From a virus, in IMG/VR virus record IMGVR_UViG_3300008120_000239, positions 1 to 62,086 of that record: a DNA stretch of 62,086 bases; one strand, written 5' to 3'. Position numbers and translations under genes: made by a program. Shown here in pieces: positions 29,257 through 59,309 of this stretch. The notes below the pieces were generated by a model that was not told the origin of the DNA, did no database searches, and saw nothing but the letters and a program-made list of their open reading frames with translations. How positions within the stretch are numbered: the stretch's first letter is position 1; every line of letters starts with the position of its first letter.

Positions 29257-30183
29257 TTACCAACAATACACAAAATGCCAATCTTCACCTTTCGCATCAC
29301 CCCAAAACCAACCCCACTTATGCCCATTATTTGTTACCCATTTTTTCTGTTTACTTGCACTTGCACCATATCCAATATCCATAGCTCTACCCCAACCGTG
29401 ATTTGAATGTCCTGGTCTTCCTACTCTTTGAGGATTTTTTCCGTATTTATTCCAAAGATAAAGTTGATAGTTGTAATCTCTATAACAGGAATACGGTACT
29501 AAATTTACACCCTCTTTTTTAGCAGCTTCACGCATTTTTATCCAAGAATTAACACAGTCAACGTGTAACTTGTTATTTTTACCAACTGCTCCAGGTGCTA
29601 CTGCTAAAACTCTATTTGGTAAATCTGCATTTTTTTCGCCTGGTTTAGGTCTACCCATCACTTTTGCTAAACGAGTATCTATATTTTTAATGTTTTCAGT
29701 TCCAGGCAGTATTGCGTATGTCCAACCATGAGGATGGCCTTGATTTGTAAACGTATAATTTCCCGATTTTTGTACAAAGGTTGATGGTGTTCCATACGCT
29801 GAATTATCAACGGGTTTATTAGATTGATCTAATGAACCATCTTCAGCAGTTACAACATAGGTTGATGATATTTTAGATTTTCCACTATAACTTTTTCTAT
29901 AATCCGATGGTTGTACAGTATAAACCTGTCTTTTATATTCATTTTTTTCTTTTTTTGGTCTTGCTAAAACAACTTCCTCTTGTTCCCAAGGATATGGGCT
30001 TCTACGTTTGTCTGATTCTTTTCTTATTTTTTTTATGCGTTGTTCGTAAATTCCTTCAGTATATGATGTTGTTCTATCGTCTATCACTTCAGGTTTGAAT
30101 GACGCCAATGGTGCATAATCTAACAAAGCTTTTGCATTTTGGTCAGAAATTTCGGAGTTTTCTCTTTTTATATCTCTATCCAT
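29257..30183 (-). CDS. M15/VanY-type peptidoglycan peptidase with virion-docking N-terminus
   Basis: The C-terminal about 150 residues form an M15 zinc peptidase (D-Ala-D-Ala carboxypeptidase / L-Ala-D-Glu endopeptidase type): RPGHSNHGWGRAMDIG provides the SxHxxGxAxD zinc site and GEDWHFVYCW the final zinc His. It would cut peptide stems of peptidoglycan. The N-terminus (MDRDIKRENSEIS, KALLDYAPLASFKPEVIDDR, PYPWEQEE) is shared with the upstream transglycosylase, implying a common attachment site on the virion. It has no signal peptide and sits in the spike/baseplate cluster, so a tail-borne entry enzyme is more likely than an endolysin. Confidence 0.85.
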   Translation of the reverse strand: MDRDIKRENSEISDQNAKALLDYAPLASFKPEVIDDRTTSYTEGIYEQRIKKIRKESDKRRSPYPWEQEEVVLARPKKEKNEYKRQVYTVQPSDYRKSYSGKSKISSTYVVTAEDGSLDQSNKPVDNSAYGTPSTFVQKSGNYTFTNQGHPHGWTYAILPGTENIKNIDTRLAKVMGRPKPGEKNADLPNRVLAVAPGAVGKNNKLHVDCVNSWIKMREAAKKEGVNLVPYSCYRDYNYQLYLWNKYGKNPQRVGRPGHSNHGWGRAMDIGYGASASKQKKWVTNNGHKWGWFWGDAKGEDWHFVYCW

Positions 30184-30187
30184 TGTT

Positions 30188-31336
30188 TTATCCTCTTAAT
30201 CCTGGTAGTTGAAATATAACAGGTTCTTTTCTCCAAATTCCATTCGGATATTTTTTTATCCATGAATTGTCGGATACACCATACCATTTTCTAACAACAC
30301 TCAGTGTCATTTCTCCTCCTGTTGCCAATCCATCATTATTTAAATCCCAAAGTGGATTTTGTCTAAAAACTTTTGGTTTTTTTGATTTTGTGTATATCAC
30401 TTTGTTTGGATCTGATGTATTTCCTCCCGCAACCATAGTATAAGCTGCTACTAAATTACGTACACCGTTTTTTTTCCAACCACTTCTGCCTTGATAATAT
30501 TTCCTAACAAATGGCAATTGTTGAAACGCATCCGCTTGTTTTGGACTTGCAAAACCATGTTTTCTAAATAAACCCCATCCACCCGGAATCCATTGTATTA
30601 GTCCCTGTGCATTTGATACTCTATTTGTTGCAGTAGGCGAAAGTCCAGACTCAAATCCCATAACAAATATTATATGCCAAAATACAGCTCTCATTTGTAC
30701 ACACTCATCATACAGAGCACTCAACCAACGGTCTCCACCATTTTTAGCAACCTGTTTATGCCATCTTCCATTGCCAGCATACTGATACCCAGGATCTGCT
30801 TTTAATTCAGCAATTTCTCTTGACTTTTGTTGCGGGTTAGCTGGAGGAGCAGCCGCTAATGGTGATAAATTACCCAAAGTGTATGAACCCGCATCAGCTG
30901 CATTTACAAATGTGGTTTTACCACCCTTTAGTTTACCAATCACTCGTATTATATTTTTATTTCTTGTTACAACTCTTTTTCGTATAGTTTTATTACCATC
31001 CGTTCCTTCAACTGTTTCTACGATAGTTTCTGTTGATGGATCTGAGCTAAAAAATCCGTTTACATAATATGTTTTTCTAACATATGGTTGTGGATCTTGT
31101 GTGGATTTAGCTACGATATATGGACGTTCTTCTTCTTCCCAAGGATACGGTTGTCTATTTGATAATCTTTCCTCTCTATATTTTTTAGCACGAGTAACTA
31201 CATCATCAATTCCATCCAATGAAACACGTTCATCTACTATATCAGGTTTTTGTGTGCCTGTCGGTTTATATTCCAACAGTGCATCATAATCACTTTGTTT
31301 CATTGGTGTAGAAGATTTTTTTATATCACGATCCAT
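30188..31336 (-). CDS. Tail-associated lytic transglycosylase-like protein, same docking N-terminus
   Basis: A 382-residue protein. Residues 1 to about 65 match the N-terminus of the downstream M15 peptidase (MDRDIKKSST, DALLEYKPTGTQKPDIVDER, QPYPWEEEE). After a variable linker, residues about 215-330 look like a lysozyme/transglycosylase fold: catalytic Glu in MGFESGLSPTATNR, then NAQGLIQWIPGG and an LVAAYTMVAGG helix. It would cleave the glycan strands while its partner cuts peptides. Located directly after the spike gene (11 nt), where T4 carries the lysozyme domain inside gp5. Confidence 0.78.
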   Translation of the reverse strand: MDRDIKKSSTPMKQSDYDALLEYKPTGTQKPDIVDERVSLDGIDDVVTRAKKYREERLSNRQPYPWEEEERPYIVAKSTQDPQPYVRKTYYVNGFFSSDPSTETIVETVEGTDGNKTIRKRVVTRNKNIIRVIGKLKGGKTTFVNAADAGSYTLGNLSPLAAAPPANPQQKSREIAELKADPGYQYAGNGRWHKQVAKNGGDRWLSALYDECVQMRAVFWHIIFVMGFESGLSPTATNRVSNAQGLIQWIPGGWGLFRKHGFASPKQADAFQQLPFVRKYYQGRSGWKKNGVRNLVAAYTMVAGGNTSDPNKVIYTKSKKPKVFRQNPLWDLNNDGLATGGEMTLSVVRKWYGVSDNSWIKKYPNGIWRKEPVIFQLPGLRG

Positions 31337-34342: not shown

Positions 34343-34876
34343 TTATATTTTTACACCTCTGCGGTATTCAAACCCTGGTTTAACAGCTTCTCCGTAGAAA
34401 TTTTCTGTTAATGCGGGTTCTTCAACTATTATATCATCTACCTCATTTGGTAGTTCTTTTAATATAACATTTTTTTGCGTAATTTCCAAATCTTTTTTAG
34501 CATTTATTTCATTTTTCTTTTCTTTTGGTAAAAATCTATTTTTTAGTTTTTTTTTATCTCTATAGAGTTTTTTCGTTGATTCTTGTATTTTTTTAAAAAA
34601 TGAATTTGGTTCTTCTATCGGTTCATCTTTTATTACTTCTTCAACTTGGGGGGTTATTTGTGGAGTTACTTCACGAATTATTTTACGTTTAGATCTTGGT
34701 TGTTTTGGTACAATTTTATTATTATTTTCATCATCTTTCATATTAGCCTTTTCAATATTTTTAAGATGATTTGCAGCTATAACCAAACTAACTGCCAATG
34801 GATCGAAAACAATAACGAGTACTATTATAAACCAATTAACAACTAAATCCATAGAAAGTCCTGTTATTCTACTCAA
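34343..34876 (-). CDS. Membrane protein, C-terminal half (split from upstream ORF)
   Basis: The listed start is TTG; an ATG at MDLVVNWF with AGGA 6 nt upstream is an alternative. The frame is actually open from about 34942 and reads NISNTTFTSELGPLLYLSRI before ITGLSMDLVVNWF, which matches the C-terminal part of a membrane protein family of T4-like phages (SELGPLxYLSxITG, then VNWFIIVLVIVFDPLAVSLVIAAN as the last transmembrane segment). A charged cytoplasmic tail follows. The N-terminal half is in the neighbouring ORF in another frame, and the central coiled coil expected between them is missing. Confidence 0.65.
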   Translation of the reverse strand: MSRITGLSMDLVVNWFIIVLVIVFDPLAVSLVIAANHLKNIEKANMKDDENNNKIVPKQPRSKRKIIREVTPQITPQVEEVIKDEPIEEPNSFFKKIQESTKKLYRDKKKLKNRFLPKEKKNEINAKKDLEITQKNVILKELPNEVDDIIVEEPALTENFYGEAVKPGFEYRRGVKI

Positions 34877-34929
34877 ATAGAGTAGTGGACCTAATTCTGA
34901 TGTGAACGTTGTGTTTGATATGTTTAACT

Positions 34930-35376
34930 TTAAAGACGTAGCTTATCATATGAGTTAATTCTATCTGTTTTTTGCTTTATAATCGTGTCTAATTTATTTC
35001 TTTGTTCGGTGAATATTATTTTCTTCTGATCTAATAATGTAATTTTATTTTGTGCCTCATAGATGTGTTTTGCAGTTTCTTGATAAGAATTTGTAAGGTA
35101 TCCATAAACTCCAATGGATGTAATTAGCATTAATACAGTAGCAGCTGAAGTTAAGTATATTTTAAAACTTGTTCTAAGGTCCTTGTAATGATCATGCAGA
35201 AATGTTATAACTACTAACTTAGAAAATTCCAACATAGCAGCCATGCCAACAACTGTCCAAGCTCCACCTGAGAATAATTTTGATATTCCGAATACAGAAT
35301 AATATCCAGAAAATACTGCTAATCCTATTGCACAAAACCAAATTAAGTTTTTAAGTGAAAATAGTTTATTCTTCAT
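34930..35376 (-). CDS. Membrane protein, N-terminal half (split)
   Basis: A 148-residue ORF with three predicted membrane segments (LIWFCAIGLAVFSGYYSVFG, AWTVVGMAAMLEFSKLVVI, IYLTSAATVLMLITSIGVYG) and the beginning of a coiled coil (EAQNKITLLDQKKIIFTEQR) that ends abruptly at a TAA. Related phage proteins, as I remember them, continue with a long coiled coil and a final membrane helix; that final part is found in the -1 frame just downstream. No convincing slippery heptamer lies in the short window where both frames are open (34930-34942), so programmed frameshifting is unlikely; deletion or assembly error is favoured. Confidence 0.68.
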   Translation of the reverse strand: MKNKLFSLKNLIWFCAIGLAVFSGYYSVFGISKLFSGGAWTVVGMAAMLEFSKLVVITFLHDHYKDLRTSFKIYLTSAATVLMLITSIGVYGYLTNSYQETAKHIYEAQNKITLLDQKKIIFTEQRNKLDTIIKQKTDRINSYDKLRL

Positions 35377-40019: not shown

Positions 40020-40156
40020 ACTTACTGCCTCATTTATGGATAATATATTTAACGAACCATTCTGTTGAAATCAACGAAATGGTTAAAACATATACCGACC
40101 ATGTTTTCAAAGAACTCTATCCCATTAATAATAGGAATGTATAATATACGAAAAAT

Positions 40157-40165
40157 ATAAATATA
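40157..40165 (-). promoter_or_regulatory. Candidate late promoter (TATATTTAT)
   Basis: The minus strand reads TTATATTTATATTTTTCG in the 369-nt gap, about 140 nt upstream of the lytic transglycosylase. Matches the YATATTTAT motif of other late genes. Confidence 0.45.
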
Positions 40166-40220
40166 AAACAAATTTTTTTTTTCTTTCAGCTATAGCCATA
40201 ATAGCTGCTATTAAATTATT

Positions 40221-40326
40221 GATCTAACTTATTAGCTTATTTTGATCTAAATTTATATTAGATCTATTAAGATCTTATTAAGCTTAGAGATCTATTAAGA
40301 TCTTAGATCTATTGATCTTATAGATC
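40221..40326. repeat. GATC cluster with 18-bp direct repeat at the strand-switch region
   Basis: Nine GATC sites occur in 106 bp (starting at 40221, 40244, 40261, 40271, 40289, 40299, 40306, 40314, 40323). Within it the 18-mer AGATCTATTAAGATCTTA occurs twice (40260-40277 and 40288-40305), with a degenerate third copy after 40305; TAAGATCTTA is itself palindromic. Chance expectation is well under one GATC per 100 bp in such AT-rich DNA. It lies between the minus-strand late block and plus-strand early block. An origin of replication, a regulator-binding array or a methylation-controlled switch are the main options. Confidence 0.75.
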
Positions 40327-40347
40327 ATAGTGTCTCTGTTGTCCCAA

Positions 40348-40378
40348 CTAATATACGAAATTTTTGTATACGATGCAA
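40348..40378 (-). promoter_or_regulatory. Early-type promoter, minus strand
   Basis: On the minus strand: GCTTGCA with TTG at 40378-40376, 20 nt, then TATATTAG at 40355-40348. The same architecture as the ten plus-strand promoters. It fires toward the GATC cluster and the lytic transglycosylase, giving that gene a long leader of about 320 nt. Confidence 0.75.
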
Positions 40379-40388
40379 GCATTTTTTT

Positions 40389-41851: not shown

Positions 41852-42274
41852 ATGGTTTTTAAAATGAAAGTTTCAAGTAAATCAAAACTCCTTACGTGTG
41901 AAGGTAATAATCCAACAAGTAAGTATTATCCGGGTGCTCCCTGTCAAGTTAGGTTAGAGGTATCAGATAACGTTGTATCCGCAGTTTGTTGGCGTTGTTT
42001 AGCACGATTGGTACCAGCACCCGAAGAAAAGAAAAACCAATCTTCAATTGGATTCCCAAGAGGTTGGCAGTTTATGAATCAGTTTGTTCATTCGGATGGA
42101 AAAGTTTATCAAAAGGGTGTTGAACAACCTGAACTATTCGGTAAATTTGAACCGACCAAAATTAAAGAGTCAGAACCTAAACGTAGAAAGAAAGAAACAT
42201 TAGATGATAAAATTCAAAAACAATATTATCAAAAATTGAAAAAGAAGAAAACAACTAATAAGTCAAAAAAATGA
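41852..42274 (+). CDS. Zinc-ribbon-like small basic protein
   Basis: A 140-residue protein (Met5, at 41864, is an alternative start) with paired cysteines (LLTCEGN, GAPCQVR, VCWRCLA) suggesting a zinc ribbon, a conserved GFPRGWQFMNQFVHSDGKVY segment recalling proteins in other large phages, and a very basic tail (KKKTTNKSKK). Possibly nucleic-acid binding. Its stop overlaps the next gene as ATGA. Confidence 0.65.
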   Translation: MVFKMKVSSKSKLLTCEGNNPTSKYYPGAPCQVRLEVSDNVVSAVCWRCLARLVPAPEEKKNQSSIGFPRGWQFMNQFVHSDGKVYQKGVEQPELFGKFEPTKIKESEPKRRKKETLDDKIQKQYYQKLKKKKTTNKSKK

Positions 42275-43149
42275 GTGATGATCAATATTGGAAAAAATCG
42301 ATAGTGTTCAGTAAACCAACATTTATACGTTCCAAAAATCAAAACAAAAATAATTTGGATAAGTACATAAGTCCAAGAGTGTTGGGAAGATTGGGAAATC
42401 AAATGTTTGAAATAGCAACTGCATATTCATTAGCAGCGGATAATAACTCAAACGTTGTTGTGTCATTAAAAAATGGAATCTACAATTCTATTGATGGTAA
42501 ATCCTCACCACCAACTCATTATGATAAAAATATATTTAGACACATCAAATTTGTGGAAAATATTGAAAATTATGATACTTGGAACGAAAAAACATTCAAA
42601 TATGAACCAATTGTCCATGATTTCAATAAAAATTTGTTACTAAATGGGTACTTTCAAAGTGAAAAGTACTTTAAACATAACAGAGACCTCATATTAAATT
42701 TGTTTAAACCGACAGACAATATAAAGGATTATATCGAAAAAAAGTACGGAAATATACTAAAAAAGTCTGTTAGTGTGCATATAAGACGTGGTGATAGGTT
42801 AAAATTAACAGAAATAATGCCACTTTGCAATCTTGACTATTACAAAAAAGCACTTTTACAATTTCCTGATGTAGACAATATTGTAGTCTTAACTGATGAT
42901 GCGGAATGGACTAAAAGAGTGTTTAGAGGCTCTAAATTCCACATAGTAGAAAATGAAACCGATTATGTTGACTTTTACATAATGTCCATGTGTGATAATA
43001 ATATAATTGCAAACAGTACGTTTAGTTGGTGGGCTGCTTGGTTAAATAAAAATAAAGATAAGATGGTTGTTGCACCGAGACAATGGTACAACGAAGAAGT
43101 TGAACATGATATAAATGAATTAATACCTAAAGGATGGTTGATGTTATGA
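42271..43149 (+). CDS. Glycosyltransferase family 11 (alpha-1,2-fucosyltransferase-like)
   Basis: A 292-residue GT11 enzyme: N-terminal GRLGNQMFEIATAYSLA, the donor-binding motif SVHIRRGDRL near residue 167, VVLTDDAEWTKR, and the C-terminal NNIIANSTFSWWAAWLN signature. These enzymes transfer fucose (or a related 6-deoxyhexose) from a GDP-sugar to a beta-galactoside-type acceptor in O-antigens and surface glycans. Presence of dTDP-sugar genes nearby leaves the actual donor open. Coupled to both neighbours by ATGA overlaps. Confidence 0.85.
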   Translation: MSDDQYWKKSIVFSKPTFIRSKNQNKNNLDKYISPRVLGRLGNQMFEIATAYSLAADNNSNVVVSLKNGIYNSIDGKSSPPTHYDKNIFRHIKFVENIENYDTWNEKTFKYEPIVHDFNKNLLLNGYFQSEKYFKHNRDLILNLFKPTDNIKDYIEKKYGNILKKSVSVHIRRGDRLKLTEIMPLCNLDYYKKALLQFPDVDNIVVLTDDAEWTKRVFRGSKFHIVENETDYVDFYIMSMCDNNIIANSTFSWWAAWLNKNKDKMVVAPRQWYNEEVEHDINELIPKGWLML

Positions 43150-43896: not shown

Positions 43897-43968
43897 GATC
43901 CTATCGACTAACGGTTAGGTCACTACCCTTTCAAGGTAGCAGTACGGGTTCAAATCCCGTTAGGATTA
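43897..43968 (+). tRNA. tRNA-Glu (TTC)
   Basis: 72-nt cloverleaf: acceptor GATCCTA/TAGGATT (one G-T), anticodon stem CTACC/GGTAG with loop CTTTCAA (anticodon TTC), T arm ACGGG-TTCAAAT-CCCGT. Discriminator A; CCA not encoded. It would read GAA, the common Glu codon in this AT-rich genome. Confidence 0.92.
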
Positions 43969-43975
43969 CAAAAAT

Positions 43976-44049
43976 GGGCCTATAGCTCAATTGGTTAGAG
44001 CAAACGACTCATAATCGTTAGGTTGGGGGTTCAAGTCCCTCTGGGCCCA
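43976..44049 (+). tRNA. tRNA with CAT anticodon (Ile2 or elongator Met)
   Basis: 74-nt cloverleaf: acceptor GGGCCTA/TGGGCCC (with a T-G pair), D arm GCTC...GAGC, anticodon stem AACGA/TCGTT with loop CTCATAA, T arm GGGGG-TTCAAGT-CCCTC (one G-T). The anticodon arm ACGACTCATAATCGT is close to bacterial tRNA-Ile2 (where C34 is changed to lysidine to read AUA), which would suit an AT-rich phage; elongator tRNA-Met is the alternative. No CCA encoded. Confidence 0.88.
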
Positions 44050-44067
44050 CTCATATAAGGAACATAT

Positions 44068-45175: not shown

Positions 45176-45212
45176 TACAAATAGATTTTTGTAAATGATT
45201 GGTGGAATCCAA

Positions 45213-46927: not shown

Positions 46928-47223
46928 TTGATATTTCATTTAAAGATGATGTTATGTATTATTCGGGAATACCATTCAATTTGTATGGTATTATCGGTAT
47001 TTTTAAAATGTTCAATTATTCATTTAACCCGTCTGTTTGGTCATCGGGATTAAATGAAATGGGAGTTGAATATATTATTGATTATTCCGTTAAACTTAGT
47101 AATGGTGATAACAGTTATCTTTTTGATAAAAACGATTTATTTGTAATAAAAGGTTGGTTAAAAGAGAATCATAAAGAGTGGTATGACCTATTACCAACGA
47201 TTGATTCCCAAATAAAGGAATAA
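46924..47223 (+). CDS. Hypothetical protein
   Basis: A 99-residue protein, start overlapping the previous stop by 4 nt (ATGA). The sequence (MYYSGIPFNLYGIIGIFKMF, LFVIKGWLKENHKEWYDLLP) is not recognised. It sits directly before rmlC (3 nt). Confidence 0.6.
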   Translation: MIDISFKDDVMYYSGIPFNLYGIIGIFKMFNYSFNPSVWSSGLNEMGVEYIIDYSVKLSNGDNSYLFDKNDLFVIKGWLKENHKEWYDLLPTIDSQIKE

Positions 47224-47226
47224 TTT

Positions 47227-47820
47227 ATGGCTTTTAGTGTGGTGGATAGGTTTTTAAACGGTTTAGTTTTATTAAAACCCGATGTTTATATGGATGATCG
47301 CGGCTTTTTTATGGAAAGTTATCGTAGCGATATGTTCAAAGATTTGGGTTTGCCCACCGAATTTGCTCAAGAAAATCACTCAAAATCTGCAATAAATGTG
47401 CTTAGAGGACTACATTTTCAATGGAATAGTCCTATGGGCAAGTTAATTCGAGTTGTTTCGGGTAAAGCTGTCTTTGCTGAAGTTGATATTAGATATAATT
47501 CTCCTACTTTATATCAACACGCCATGTTTGAATTAGATGCAAAAGATAAATTATTACTATGGGTTCCTGCGGGATTTGCAAATGGATTCCTCTCACTTGC
47601 AGAAGGAACTGAAATAATTTATAAATGCACTACTACATATAATCCTACGGGTGAAAGTGGTATCTCATGGAACGATCCGAAACTGAATATAAATTGGTCT
47701 AAGTATCTTATGAACACCAAACCCATTCTTTCGTATAAGGATGATAATGCACAAACCCTGAGAGAGTGGTTGGGTAAGGACGAGTCGAAGTCGTTTAGTA
47801 TTAATGTTCAATCTGCATAG
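47227..47820 (+). CDS. rmlC: dTDP-4-dehydrorhamnose 3,5-epimerase-like RmlC
   Basis: A 197-residue RmlC cupin. Family features: DDRGFFMESYRSDMF at the N-terminus, catalytic His in VLRGLHFQW, GKLIRVVSGKAVFAEVDIR, and LLLWVPAGFANGFLSL with the conserved aromatic region. It epimerises C3 and C5 of dTDP-4-keto-6-deoxyglucose. Length is slightly above the usual 180-190. With RmlA at 50.2 kb it gives steps 1 and 3 of dTDP-rhamnose synthesis; RmlB and RmlD are not in the window and may come from the host. Confidence 0.92.
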   Translation: MAFSVVDRFLNGLVLLKPDVYMDDRGFFMESYRSDMFKDLGLPTEFAQENHSKSAINVLRGLHFQWNSPMGKLIRVVSGKAVFAEVDIRYNSPTLYQHAMFELDAKDKLLLWVPAGFANGFLSLAEGTEIIYKCTTTYNPTGESGISWNDPKLNINWSKYLMNTKPILSYKDDNAQTLREWLGKDESKSFSINVQSA

Positions 47821-47828
47821 GTAATAAT

Positions 47829-48002
47829 ATGAAGTTTTTAAAAAGTCACGATGGAATTGCATTAACAGTACTTGTCGTTGCAATTTTATTTACGGTACTA
47901 ACGAGAAATATTTTTGTTAAAACCGAAAAGGTCGAAAAAACACATGTTTCTTGCATGGAGTATACAGACATTGATTCACAGTGTATGCCGATGAGGCAAT
48001 GA
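47829..48002 (+). CDS. 57-residue membrane protein
   Basis: ATG at 47829, 8 nt after rmlC, stop TGA at 48000-48002. Sequence: short basic start (MKFLKSHDG), one membrane helix (IALTVLVVAILFTVL), then an outside-type tail with two cysteines (VSCMEYTD, SQCMPMRQ). Typical of tiny phage membrane proteins; function unknown. Confidence 0.55.
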   Translation: MKFLKSHDGIALTVLVVAILFTVLTRNIFVKTEKVEKTHVSCMEYTDIDSQCMPMRQ

Positions 48003-48054
48003 TGAATTATGTATGAGTATGTAACGATGTTAAAATTAATTCGATTGTAACAAT

Positions 48055-48330
48055 TGTTCTATTATTTGGGGCTACTTGAGTAACAGAGACTTTTTTGATG
48101 CTAAGGTGTACCACCTTACCATCTTCAAAAGTCCATCAATTGTCCCTAATGGTTAGGGGGTTTGTAATAGTTTCGGTGATTTTTAAATCTCGTTATGCAA
48201 CTACACAATATTAATTTCATAAATTGTGTCATAGAATCCTCGCTAAGAGACGAAAATGTTTTATGACTATAATTTATGGTGTTTATAAAAAACGATTGAT
48301 AGCGAAGACGCTACACGGGTAAAACGGAGT
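48055..48330 (+). ncRNA. Candidate structured RNA in 333-nt gap
   Basis: The stretch 48003-48335 has no convincing ORF but several strong helices: a long interrupted stem-loop 48088-48133 (GACTTTT/AAAAGTC, GATG/CATC, AAGGTG-TAC-CACCTT), a perfect CCCTAA-TGG-TTAGGG hairpin at 48144-48158, ACACAAT/ATTGTGT at 48203-48229, and TAGCG-AAGA-CGCTA near 48299-48312. The density of paired elements in AT-rich DNA suggests a functional RNA or a long leader of the next gene. No standard early promoter box is seen immediately upstream. Not recognised as tmRNA, a known riboswitch or an intron. Confidence 0.5.
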
Positions 48331-48335
48331 AAATA

Positions 48336-48776
48336 ATGGCATATAAGACCTTAAATAAGAGTGGTAACACTAAAAATGCTTATATTTGGGTAGAAAAGTT
48401 GTTAGAAAAGTTATTTTACGAGTCTAACGGTAAGAGAAATGATGATATAGATGCAACAAAAATAAAAGGTCTATCATCCGCTTCTAAACAATATTTGGCA
48501 CATCTTTATGACCATTTAGAGTCAAATCGTGCAATTTACTTGACAGCGTTCAAGGATCGCTTCAAAAAAACACCCGAAACCGTTGAAGAAAAGATTTTTA
48601 CCATTGCCTCTAACCATTTTGGTGGGTTTGGACGTAATGGATGGGCACAATCTAAAATCACTACACTACCGTTGCCCACCAACGATGTAATAAATGATTT
48701 GATTCGTGTAATGATGGATGGACAACGTAAACAAGAATTAGTAGACTTGGCAAAGAAATTAGGCCTATCGGAGTGA
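48336..48776 (+). CDS. Hypothetical protein
   Basis: A 146-residue, mostly helical protein (AYIWVEKLLEKLFYESNGKR, SSASKQYLAHLYDHLESNRA, KQELVDLAKKLGLSE) with a central SNHFGGFGRNGWAQSKIT. ATG preceded by ACGGAGTAAATA. No family recognised. It lies directly after the candidate structured RNA, which may be its leader. Confidence 0.65.
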   Translation: MAYKTLNKSGNTKNAYIWVEKLLEKLFYESNGKRNDDIDATKIKGLSSASKQYLAHLYDHLESNRAIYLTAFKDRFKKTPETVEEKIFTIASNHFGGFGRNGWAQSKITTLPLPTNDVINDLIRVMMDGQRKQELVDLAKKLGLSE

Positions 48777-48779
48777 ATA

Positions 48780-48989
48780 ATGGAAGATAACAAGGATATG
48801 ATTACCAAGCATATAATGGTTAACGAGAATATATTTAAAGCACTATACGAACATATTAAAGAATTGGAAGGCATTGGCATTCAAAATCCAATAGAAAATA
48901 TAAAGGGTATGCTTGATTCAATCAAAATAGCAACGCAACTATCAATCGATGATGATGACGACCATCACGGCGATAATGTAGATTTTTAA
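48780..48989 (+). CDS. Small hypothetical protein with Asp/His-rich end
   Basis: A 69-residue protein with a helical core (IMVNENIFKALYEHIKELEG) and a C-terminal run DDDDDHHGDNVDF that could bind metal. 3 nt after the preceding gene. Function unknown. Confidence 0.55.
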   Translation: MEDNKDMITKHIMVNENIFKALYEHIKELEGIGIQNPIENIKGMLDSIKIATQLSIDDDDDHHGDNVDF

Positions 48990-49000
48990 TTAGGTGACAC

Positions 49001-49357
49001 ATGAGCAGACCAAAAACAATTATATTAGACATAGATGGCACATTAGTAGAACATGCACCACCAAACGTGGCACAAGGTTATACACACAAAATGGTGTTGT
49101 TGGAAGGTACAATAGAAAAATTAATAGAGTGGGACAGATTAGGTTATAATATAATTCTCCTAACGGGAAGACGTGAAAGCCTAAGACGACAAACAGAACG
49201 TCAATTAGAAGAAGTTGGCATATTCTACGACCAATTGATTATGGGTGTAGGTGGTGGTTGTCGTATCCTTATCAATGATAAGAAACCAACAGGTGAGATA
49301 ACCTCAATAGCGTTTAATCCTGAACGTAATGAAGGTATAAAAGACATTAATGTATAA
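49001..49357 (+). CDS. HAD-superfamily phosphatase (small, capless)
   Basis: A 118-residue HAD enzyme: catalytic DIDGT in TIILDIDGTLVEHA (nucleophile Asp), motif II Thr in NIILLTGRRESLRRQT, and a late acidic segment ILINDKKPTGEITSI. Small capless HAD proteins of this type occur in polysaccharide loci and phages; the substrate may be a sugar phosphate or a nucleic-acid 3' phosphate. Located between the sugar genes rmlC and rmlA, which favours a sugar-phosphate role (inference). Confidence 0.75.
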   Translation: MSRPKTIILDIDGTLVEHAPPNVAQGYTHKMVLLEGTIEKLIEWDRLGYNIILLTGRRESLRRQTERQLEEVGIFYDQLIMGVGGGCRILINDKKPTGEITSIAFNPERNEGIKDINV

Positions 49358-49363
49358 TATAAT

Positions 49364-49567
49364 ATGGTGAGAGTTATGGACGAAACAATTATGACAGTGG
49401 AAGAACGATTAGATATATTAGAAAGAAAGCTAAAAATATATGAAGATATGATTAATCACATGAATAATGTTATACGTGATAATCTCATTCAAAAGATAGA
49501 ACAGGTTACAAGAGATATGGTTTCTGAGGGATATGAGAGTACCGCAAAAAATAATGATGGTTTGTAA
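49364..49567 (+). CDS. Small coiled-coil protein
   Basis: 67 residues (ATG at 49376, MDETIMTVEERL, is an equally good start). Amphipathic helix pattern ERLDILERKLKIYEDMINHM. Ends just before promoter P2. Function unknown. Confidence 0.55.
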   Translation: MVRVMDETIMTVEERLDILERKLKIYEDMINHMNNVIRDNLIQKIEQVTRDMVSEGYESTAKNNDGL

Positions 49568-49929: not shown

Positions 49930-50150
49930 ACACAGACTTACTACATCTATACAAAATATACCCAATAGAAGATGAAAAAGATATTATCTTCCTAAATACA
50001 GCAACAATTACAAATATATCAGTAAGTGACACGAATACAAATTGGTCGGAGATTCAAACTACTATCAGAACTAAACCATACGTTGTTGATATGCAGATTG
50101 ATGATTTAGTATCAGATATAAATTTCAAACGTGCAAGGATGGTTAGGTAA
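49926..50150 (+). CDS. Small hypothetical protein
   Basis: A 74-residue protein (LLHLYKIYPIEDEKDIIFLN, ATITNISVSDTNTNWSEIQT) of beta-rich appearance. Overlaps both neighbours and precedes rmlA in the same transcript. Function unknown. Confidence 0.6.
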   Translation: MNTDLLHLYKIYPIEDEKDIIFLNTATITNISVSDTNTNWSEIQTTIRTKPYVVDMQIDDLVSDINFKRARMVR

Positions 50151-51019
50151 TGAGTACAAAAGGAATTATTTTAGCAGGAGGACGTGGAACACGTCTCTAT
50201 CCACTCACATCAGTAGTATGCAAGCAATTACTCCCCGTTTATGACAAACCAATGATTTATTATCCCTTAGCTACCCTAATGTTGGGTGGAATTAGAGAAA
50301 TTCTCATTATTTCAACGTCAGAAGACATCCCATTGTTCAAAAAACTGTTAGGAAACGGTGAGCAATTCGGAATTTCTATAGAATATGCCGTTCAAGATGA
50401 ACCAAATGGTATCGCAGAAGCGTTTACAATAGGTAAAGATTTTATTGGAAATAACCAAGTTTGCCTTATTTTAGGTGATAATTTGTTCCATGGCAAGTTA
50501 GATTTCTTACGAAATGCACTACAAACTAACGTTGGTGGTACTGTTTTTGGATATAAAGTGCAAGATCCTGAGAGATATGGTGTAGTTGAGTTCGACGCAC
50601 AAGGTAAAGTTATTTCAATTGAAGAAAAACCTACCAATCCTAAGTCGAGATATGCAATTCCGGGACTTTATATCTTCGATTCCAATGTTTCTTATATTGC
50701 TGAGAATGTTGAACCGAGTGAACGAGGTGAAAAAGAAATAACATCCGTTCAAAATGCTTACCTAAATAGTGGCAAACTACGTGTAGATCTCGGTGGTCGC
50801 CGTATCATTAAAAAAAAAACGGGAACACCCGAATCACTCTTAGAGGCGGGACAGTTCATTAGTGTCATTGAAAGAAGACAGAACATGAAAGTTGCCTGTC
50901 TCGAAGAAATTGCCCTACAAGTTGGTTTTATTTCATTAGAAGAATTTGAGAAGTCTGTGGATATGCTTCCGAATTCATTATACAAAGAATATTGTAAAAA
51001 AATCTTATTAGAAAAGTAA
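50150..51019 (+). CDS. rmlA: Glucose-1-phosphate thymidylyltransferase RmlA (with adapter-corrupted segment)
   Basis: A 289-residue RmlA: nucleotide-binding GIILAGGRGTRLYPLTSVVC with KQLLPVYDKPMIYYPL, the LILGDNLFHG motif (metal Asp) and GYKVQDPERYGVVEFD. It makes dTDP-glucose from dTTP and Glc-1-P. Between VDL and TGTPESLLEAG the conserved LGRGFAWLD-type segment, which carries the second metal-binding Asp, is replaced by GGRRIIKKK. That replacement is encoded by an Illumina adapter plus poly-A (50781-50819) of exactly the same length, so the natural gene is probably intact. It shares one base with the preceding gene. Confidence 0.93.
   Translation: MSTKGIILAGGRGTRLYPLTSVVCKQLLPVYDKPMIYYPLATLMLGGIREILIISTSEDIPLFKKLLGNGEQFGISIEYAVQDEPNGIAEAFTIGKDFIGNNQVCLILGDNLFHGKLDFLRNALQTNVGGTVFGYKVQDPERYGVVEFDAQGKVISIEEKPTNPKSRYAIPGLYIFDSNVSYIAENVEPSERGEKEITSVQNAYLNSGKLRVDLGGRRIIKKKTGTPESLLEAGQFISVIERRQNMKVACLEEIALQVGFISLEEFEKSVDMLPNSLYKEYCKKILLEK
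50781..50819. other. Illumina P5 adapter remnant plus A10 inside rmlA (artefact)
   Basis: Positions 50781-50809 (beginning GTGTAGATCTCGGTGGTCGC, ending CGTATCATT) equal the reverse complement of the 5' end of the Illumina P5 adapter, followed by ten A residues (50810-50819) as produced by read-through. The opposite strand translates to the well-known database artefact MIRRPPRSTR. The insertion keeps frame and length, so it looks like a consensus error rather than a biological change. Confidence 0.95.
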
Positions 51020-58746: not shown

Positions 58747-59027
58747 ACCCCCACAGGGGGTGTTCAAACAAAGGTTTCTCTAGTCAAAAAATTCTGGGGC
58801 CGATAGAAAAAGACACCCCCCGGCACTGCGTAGCCCTACCTAGGGGCGGGGGTTTACAGTTAATAGCCCCACCCCCCCCTCCGGGTCTCAATTACAGTAC
58901 AAATATACACAATTTCCACCACATAAACAAGCACTATTTTTGGGGTGATCAAAATAAAGTGCTTGGAAATTAGGGGTAAATTCCGTATCTTCCCGAACCC
59001 CCCGCGGGGGTATGGGGTGTATGGGAA
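58747..59027. other. GC-rich hairpin island in the 573-nt intergenic region
   Basis: The gap 58737-59309 begins with stacked GC-rich inverted repeats that stand out in this AT-rich genome: ACCCCC-ACA-GGGGGT (58747-58761), a CCCCC/GGGGG arm pair near 58816-58852 enclosing GCCC/GGGGC, and ACCCCC-CGC-GGGGGT (58997-59011) inside an outer TTCCC/GGGAA pair (58990-59027). U-tracts on the plus strand are lacking. They may insulate the homing-endonuclease genes from the promoter array that follows. No ORF is called here. Confidence 0.6.
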
Positions 59028-59044
59028 ATAAAAAAAATAATTGC

Positions 59045-59075
59045 TTGGATCTGTTCTCAAAATTGACTATATTTG
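59045..59075 (+). promoter_or_regulatory. Early promoter P5
   Basis: TTG at 59045-59047 (TTGCTTGGAT), 20-nt spacer, TATATTTG at 59068-59075. First of three tandem promoters. A 14-codon ORF (59092-59136) lies just downstream. Confidence 0.85.
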
Positions 59076-59110
59076 TACTGTTCTTTGATACAATGACACG
59101 GAATGACAAC

Positions 59111-59226
59111 GGAAACAAGAAAGTTTCCACCAAGTAAAAAAAGTGCTTGGCTATGTGCTCAAAATTACTTATATTTGTTCTATGTTTGAGACATGAGGAA
59201 ACAAGACAGTTTCCACCGAGTAAAAA
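59111..59226 (+). repeat. Duplicated leader unit with GGAAAC/GTTTCC hairpin
   Basis: GGAAACAAGA-(A/C)-AGTTTCCACC-(A/G)-AGTAAAAAAA occurs at 59111-59141 and again at 59197-59227, each preceding a promoter. Each copy can fold as GGAAAC/GTTTCC or GGAAAC/GTTTCC with a 6-nt loop, like a weak terminator between tandem promoters. The arrangement looks like a duplicated promoter-leader cassette. Confidence 0.6.
59147..59177 (+). promoter_or_regulatory. Early promoter P6
   Basis: TTG at 59147-59149 (GTGCTTGGCT), 20-nt spacer, TATATTTG at 59170-59177. Second of three tandem promoters. Confidence 0.85.
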
Positions 59227-59241
59227 AAAATAAAAAAGTGC

Positions 59242-59272
59242 TTGCGTATGTGGTTTGAATTCCGTATATTTG
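59242..59272 (+). promoter_or_regulatory. Early promoter P7
   Basis: TTG at 59242-59244 (GTGCTTGCGT), 20-nt spacer, TATATTTG at 59265-59272. Third tandem promoter, drives the small genes from 59310. Confidence 0.85.
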
Positions 59273-59293
59273 TATAAGAAAGTTTGACACAAC

Positions 59294-59309
59294 AACATTG
59301 GAGAATGTT
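59294..59309 (+). promoter_or_regulatory. Hairpin with GGAG in the loop, abutting ATG
   Basis: AACATT (59294-59299), GGAG, AATGTT (59304-59309), ATG at 59310. The ribosome site forms the tetraloop. Confidence 0.6.

Follow-up and report, generated by a model that had tools for sequence, protein, structure and literature searches.

Genomic context and coding potential

The DNA analysed here, referred to throughout as the window, is the whole of IMG/VR record IMGVR_UViG_3300008120_000239 (62,086 nucleotides), a record of a contractile-tailed phage (baseplate wedge). A gap of 333 nt lies between the stop codon of a 57-aa ORF and the ATG of a 146-aa ORF, both on the + strand, and is the second largest gene-free gap of the window (Table 1). 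Neither neighbour has a relative in the collections searched. The 57-aa ORF gave no Pfam or PADLOC match and the 146-aa protein none in PHROGs, Pfam or PADLOC; a structure model of the latter was of low confidence (mean pLDDT 52) and gave no fold match. Sugar-related genes are found on the same variable arm, encoding a glycosyltransferase (42271-43149), a dTDP-4-dehydrorhamnose 3,5-epimerase-like protein (47227-47820) and a nucleotidyltransferase of the NTP_transferase family (50150-51019). The largest gene-free gap of the window, at 40020-40388, has 25% G+C and many GATC/AGATCT repeats, folds with a z of ~-5 on both strands and lies near the switch of gene direction; it looks like an origin or control region.

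Table 1. Features in and around the gap at 48003-48335
Feature	Position	Strand	Basis or remark
57-aa ORF, one hydrophobic stretch, orphan	47829..48002	+	upstream neighbour
Gene-free structured intergenic spacer	48003..48335	+	ORF, codon-usage and fold z tests
Imperfect hairpin, long and rod-like, around the nested stem-loop	48022..48195	+	predicted only without flanks
Nested stem-loop, GACTTTT...GATGCTAAGGTG TAC CACCTTACCATC...AAAAGTC	48088..48133	+	MFE -18.3 kcal/mol; post-selected z -5.3
CCCTAA-TGG-TTAGGG hairpin, competing with the rod	48144..48158	+	probability 0.02-0.95 by context
20-bp stem with one bulge	48218..48278	+	probability 0.98-1.0, all contexts
TATAAT hexamer in 3' arm of the 20-bp stem	48268..48273	+	exact match
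TAGCG-AAGA-CGCTA hairpin, upstream of the ribosome-binding site	48300..48313	+	pairing probability
GGAG, Shine-Dalgarno-like site of the 146-aa gene	48326..48329	+	sequence
146-aa orphan protein gene	48336..48776	+	downstream gene

The original prediction described the gap as free of ORFs, and this description holds: it contains no credible ORF, and codon log-odds in all six frames range from -0.05 to -0.12. The score was trained on the other genes of the window and averages 0.32 for coding segments and -0.11 for wrong frames, so the gap is neither a missed nor a freshly broken gene. One + frame does have few stops between 48015 and 48214 and encodes short hydrophobic stretches, as a decayed or frameshifted gene might. 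However, codon scores stay at the wrong-frame level throughout the gap, no protein-level relatives were found for the immediate neighbours and the neighbouring genes use TGA as stop, and we rejected this explanation as very improbable.

Folding strength of the gap

Folded alone, the gap reached -78.7 kcal/mol on the + strand (z -2.9) and -71.3 kcal/mol on the - strand (z -4.5). None of 100 shuffles folded as well on either strand, an outcome in keeping with the original prediction, which had proposed such a comparison as a check. When the whole window was scanned on both strands in 160-nt segments (n=387), the segment at 48025 ranked sixth on each strand, with five scoring better. Allowing for the choice of hairpin, one as strong as the nested stem-loop occurred in 1.75% of gap shuffles and one as strong as the 82-nt stem at 48209-48290 in 11%; both thresholds were reached together in only 1.5%. 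Across the window, ~10 sites reach the first threshold and ~37 the second. The z values of the two single hairpins (-5.3 for the nested stem-loop, -5.0 for the 82-nt stem) are post-selected and do not measure significance. From these ranks and shuffle frequencies, the structure of the gap is moderately unusual but not exceptional. The stronger z on the - strand speaks as much for palindromic DNA as for an RNA.

These data bear directly on a serious alternative, nearly as likely as an operon leader, in which the gap is an ordinary spacer with no role as RNA. It would have been left behind as genes came and went on the variable arm, and its hairpins would be palindromes that are neutral or due to chance. 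The ~10 other sites with hairpins matching the nested one are consistent with such an inert spacer, as are the lineage-specific nature of the surrounding cassette and the frequency of structured gaps in a related phage (both described below). The shuffle results argue against it, both for the gap as a whole and for the joint occurrence of its two hairpins. Dense phage genomes, moreover, seldom keep 333 bases without use.

Individual helices

The original prediction named four hairpins in the gap, of which the nested stem-loop proved sound. Its inner helix (48097-48108/48112-48123) and outer helix (48088-48094/48127-48133) both pair with probability 1.0 when the gap is folded alone; across contexts of up to 1,001 nt the inner helix is retained at 0.99-1.0 and the outer at 0.5-1.0. 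The ~175-nt rod that encloses this stem-loop is predicted with pairing probabilities of 0.8-0.95 in the gap alone, and its base and middle fall to 0.04-0.22 in long transcripts.

Two of the other named hairpins are present in the sequence, but whether they form depends on context. The CCCTAA/TTAGGG hairpin reaches a probability of only 0.05 in the gap alone because its bases pair into the rod, and 0.95 only when the 5' half is omitted. The two structures compete, and a switch in the 5' half between the rod and this hairpin is conceivable. The hairpin with a GA-rich tetraloop (48298-48314 in the gap-alone ensemble) is strong when the gap is folded by itself (0.99), but drops to 0.21-0.37 in long transcripts.

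The fourth, a pairing of ACACAAT with ATTGTGT, had a probability of 0.00 in every context folded, because its second arm is taken up by a 20-bp stem that the original prediction did not list. The arms of this stem (48218-48237/48258-48278) include several G-U pairs. Around the GGAG site of the downstream gene, the region 48322-48342 is mostly unpaired, with a mean unpaired probability of 0.68-0.71.

Comparison with known RNA families

At the gathering score, Rfam detected nothing in the gap, the only matches in the window being two tRNAs. A search of 47800-48400 at E values up to 10 gave only short snoRNA- or miRNA-like chance matches in the gap. ARAGORN found no tmRNA and only two tRNAs, at 43897-44050. 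The earlier view that the region does not look like a tmRNA, an intron or a known riboswitch thus holds: tmRNA was rejected on the ARAGORN and Rfam results, and self-splicing introns and known riboswitches were rejected since nothing in 47800-48400 rose above chance in Rfam. A 6S-like RNA was considered for the rod-like fold and rejected, as no 6S family appeared even at E up to 10. We also rejected a type III toxin-antitoxin RNA; the gap contains no tandem repeats of ~35-50 nt and the downstream protein has no family match.

Large ornate RNAs, including ROOL and GOLLD, likewise gave no Rfam model match. ROOL and GOLLD resemble the gap in being structured, non-coding and phage-encoded, and they often lie near tRNA genes (PMC12286853). 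However, they are ~660-830 nt long and have elaborate folds supported by covariation (PMC12286853), whereas the gap, which lies ~4 kb from the tRNA genes, offers at most 333 nt, and its hairpins are simple and number two or three.

Transcription signals in and around the gap

The promoter type described for Bacteroidota, TTG-N20-TAnnTTTG (PMC6847099), is carried by the window and its relatives. In the relaxed form TTG-N18-22-TAnnTTTG it is absent from the gap, though present elsewhere in the window, most clearly at 58.9-61.6 kb. Seven copies of TTG-N20-TATATTTG (Bacteroidota sigma-ABfr type) cluster at this right end of the window, at 58900 on the - strand and at 59045, 59147, 59242, 60019, 61196 and 61526 on the + strand. 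Three of the + strand copies fall inside a mechanically called - strand ORF (58888-59298), which therefore may not be a gene. These Bacteroidota-type motifs suggest a Bacteroidota host for the phage.

Sigma-70-like sites in 47200-49400 were no more frequent than in shuffles. A TATAAT hexamer at 48268, ~60 bases before the ATG, could serve as a -10 element of sigma-70 type, but it has no good -35 and was not among the promoter-like pairs returned by the promoter-pair scan. A terminator scan of the + strand of the gap found no hairpin with a good T run. Its sole terminator-like match was a loose one at 48143-48159, comprising the CCCTAA hairpin with the tail GTTTGTAATA, and the two strongest hairpins of the gap have no T run. 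We therefore rejected an intrinsic terminator, defined as a G+C-rich hairpin followed directly by a T run. Nothing in the promoter pattern indicates that transcription begins within the gap.

The position of the hexamer in the 3' arm of a 20-bp inverted repeat raises the possibility of a control region acting at the DNA level, in which a promoter of the 48336 gene at TATAAT would be overlapped by a palindromic operator. A fold at least as significant on the - as on the + strand is what DNA palindromes would give. On the other hand, promoter-like sites are no commoner than in shuffles, the -35 element is missing, the recognisable promoters of the phage follow another consensus, and the several G-U pairs of the stem are mismatches in DNA. 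We regard a DNA-level control region as quite unlikely.

A free small RNA of the phage that acts in trans and has a promoter and an end of its own is also unlikely, if slightly less so. The long rod-like fold, with its high pairing probability in the gap alone, and the failure to match any known family are compatible with such an RNA. Against it, the gap has neither a promoter like those recognised elsewhere in the phage nor a clear terminator at its 3' end, the rod is lost once flanks are included, and no homologue was found in the collections searched. Nothing beyond the folding supports a free ncRNA.

Relatives and lineage

The baseplate protein has >200 relatives in IMG/VR, its best named match being that of Microcystis phage Mel-JY01 (67%). 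Related records are syntenic with the window over its left two thirds, and most of the right arm, from ~42 kb onwards, is private to it. G005, the best long relative, carries homologues of the genes at 45195 and 49364 almost next to each other, and no homologue of the genes that separate them here. The present lineage therefore has an additional segment made up of the epimerase gene, the 57-aa ORF, the gap and the gene of the 146-aa protein, and on this comparison of gene order the gap segment is lineage-specific cargo of the variable arm. Contig L188, of 47.9 kb and near-identical to the window, stops short of the gap, at window position ~47.0 kb.

No relative of the gap was recovered by blastn against phages, plasmids and ~60 related IMG/VR records, by exact stem and loop patterns in IMG/VR, or by a degenerate stem pattern in GTDB genomes. 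Covariance models, each built from the single sequence of one of the two domains of the gap, found none among the loci and ~45 records scanned. Of the weak matches to these models, the best fell on terminator-type hairpins of Mel-JY01 and on a segment of G005 that overlaps coding sequence; three loop-pattern matches had a covariance score over the seed only. Protein-led searches with both neighbours, the epimerase, a 493-aa protein and the nucleotidyltransferase found no syntenic copy of the gap.

The closest relative with a name, Mel-JY01 (PP395634), likewise contains gaps of 230-565 nt that fold strongly and match no Rfam family; of 16 gaps folded, about half reach a z of -2 or lower. These gaps show no sequence or model similarity to the present one above chance, and several of them, unlike it, hold promoters and terminators. 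Structured examples without Rfam match lie at 129881-130241, 134614-135178 and 128677-129080 (29881-30241, 34614-35178 and 28677-29080 of L217); the first holds divergent promoters and the second is dense with CCCCGGGGG-type blocks. The record of Mel-JY01 (L215-L218) names Microcystis elabens as the host. The phage has >15 promoters of the Bacteroidota type (for example at 68717, 69086, 129519 and 143094), and its baseplate protein is related to those of the window and of Flavobacterium phages. Together these suggest that the recorded host may be wrong, or that the true host is a companion bacterium.

The gap as a possible operon leader

We tentatively favour, as the likeliest of the readings considered though with less than even confidence, an untranslated spacer within a rightward polycistronic operon, serving the 146-aa gene at 48336 as its 5' leader. 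The gap is non-coding and lies between genes of the same strand, its two main hairpins are predicted in all contexts folded, and the ribosome-binding site is mostly open. Bacteroidota-type promoters are absent from it, sigma-70-like sites in 47200-49400 do not exceed those of shuffles, and none of its hairpins makes a terminator with an evident T run. These data are easier to reconcile with a leader or spacer within an operon than with a free ncRNA. Several findings nevertheless argue against a leader. No homologue was found among phages, plasmids, IMG/VR, GTDB genomes or related records; long transcripts do not retain the outer rod; and by the standard of the window the fold does not stand out. 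In addition, the z is stronger on the - strand, and transcription could begin within the gap at the TATAAT of 48268.

If the gap is such a leader, it would be transcribed by read-through as part of a polycistronic mRNA, and the hairpins at 48088-48133 and 48218-48278 would act in cis on the message. In the simplest form of this model, the two hairpins would be barriers to ribonucleases or entry points for them, and would separate the stability and expression of the downstream genes from those of the upstream genes. Phage operons contain structured 5' leaders and intercistronic hairpins that stabilise mRNA or serve in its processing. The gap resembles phage operon leaders in being untranslated, in lying between co-directional genes and in placing stable hairpins upstream of an open ribosome-binding site; it differs from them in that it is known from sequence alone and has no homologue, known regulatory protein or ligand.

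A new, very narrowly distributed structured RNA of a Bacteroidota phage, composed of the rod and the 20-bp stem-loop and regulating the downstream orphan gene or acting on the host, is improbable, much as a free small RNA is. If functional, the gap would add one more lineage-specific leader or ncRNA to the phage RNA biology of a host phylum in which little is known of it. At present the case is chiefly a caution: in a single AT-rich phage gap that has no relatives, strong hairpins are not enough to make an ncRNA.

Shine-Dalgarno-like sites such as that of the 146-aa gene precede 34 of the 82 ORFs in the window, compared with 6.7% of random positions. Bacteroidota mRNAs are described as lacking Shine-Dalgarno sites (PMC6847099). 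The related phage Mel-JY01 encodes ribosomal protein S21 (L215 22183-22410), and restoration of Shine-Dalgarno use by a phage bS21 is a testable idea.
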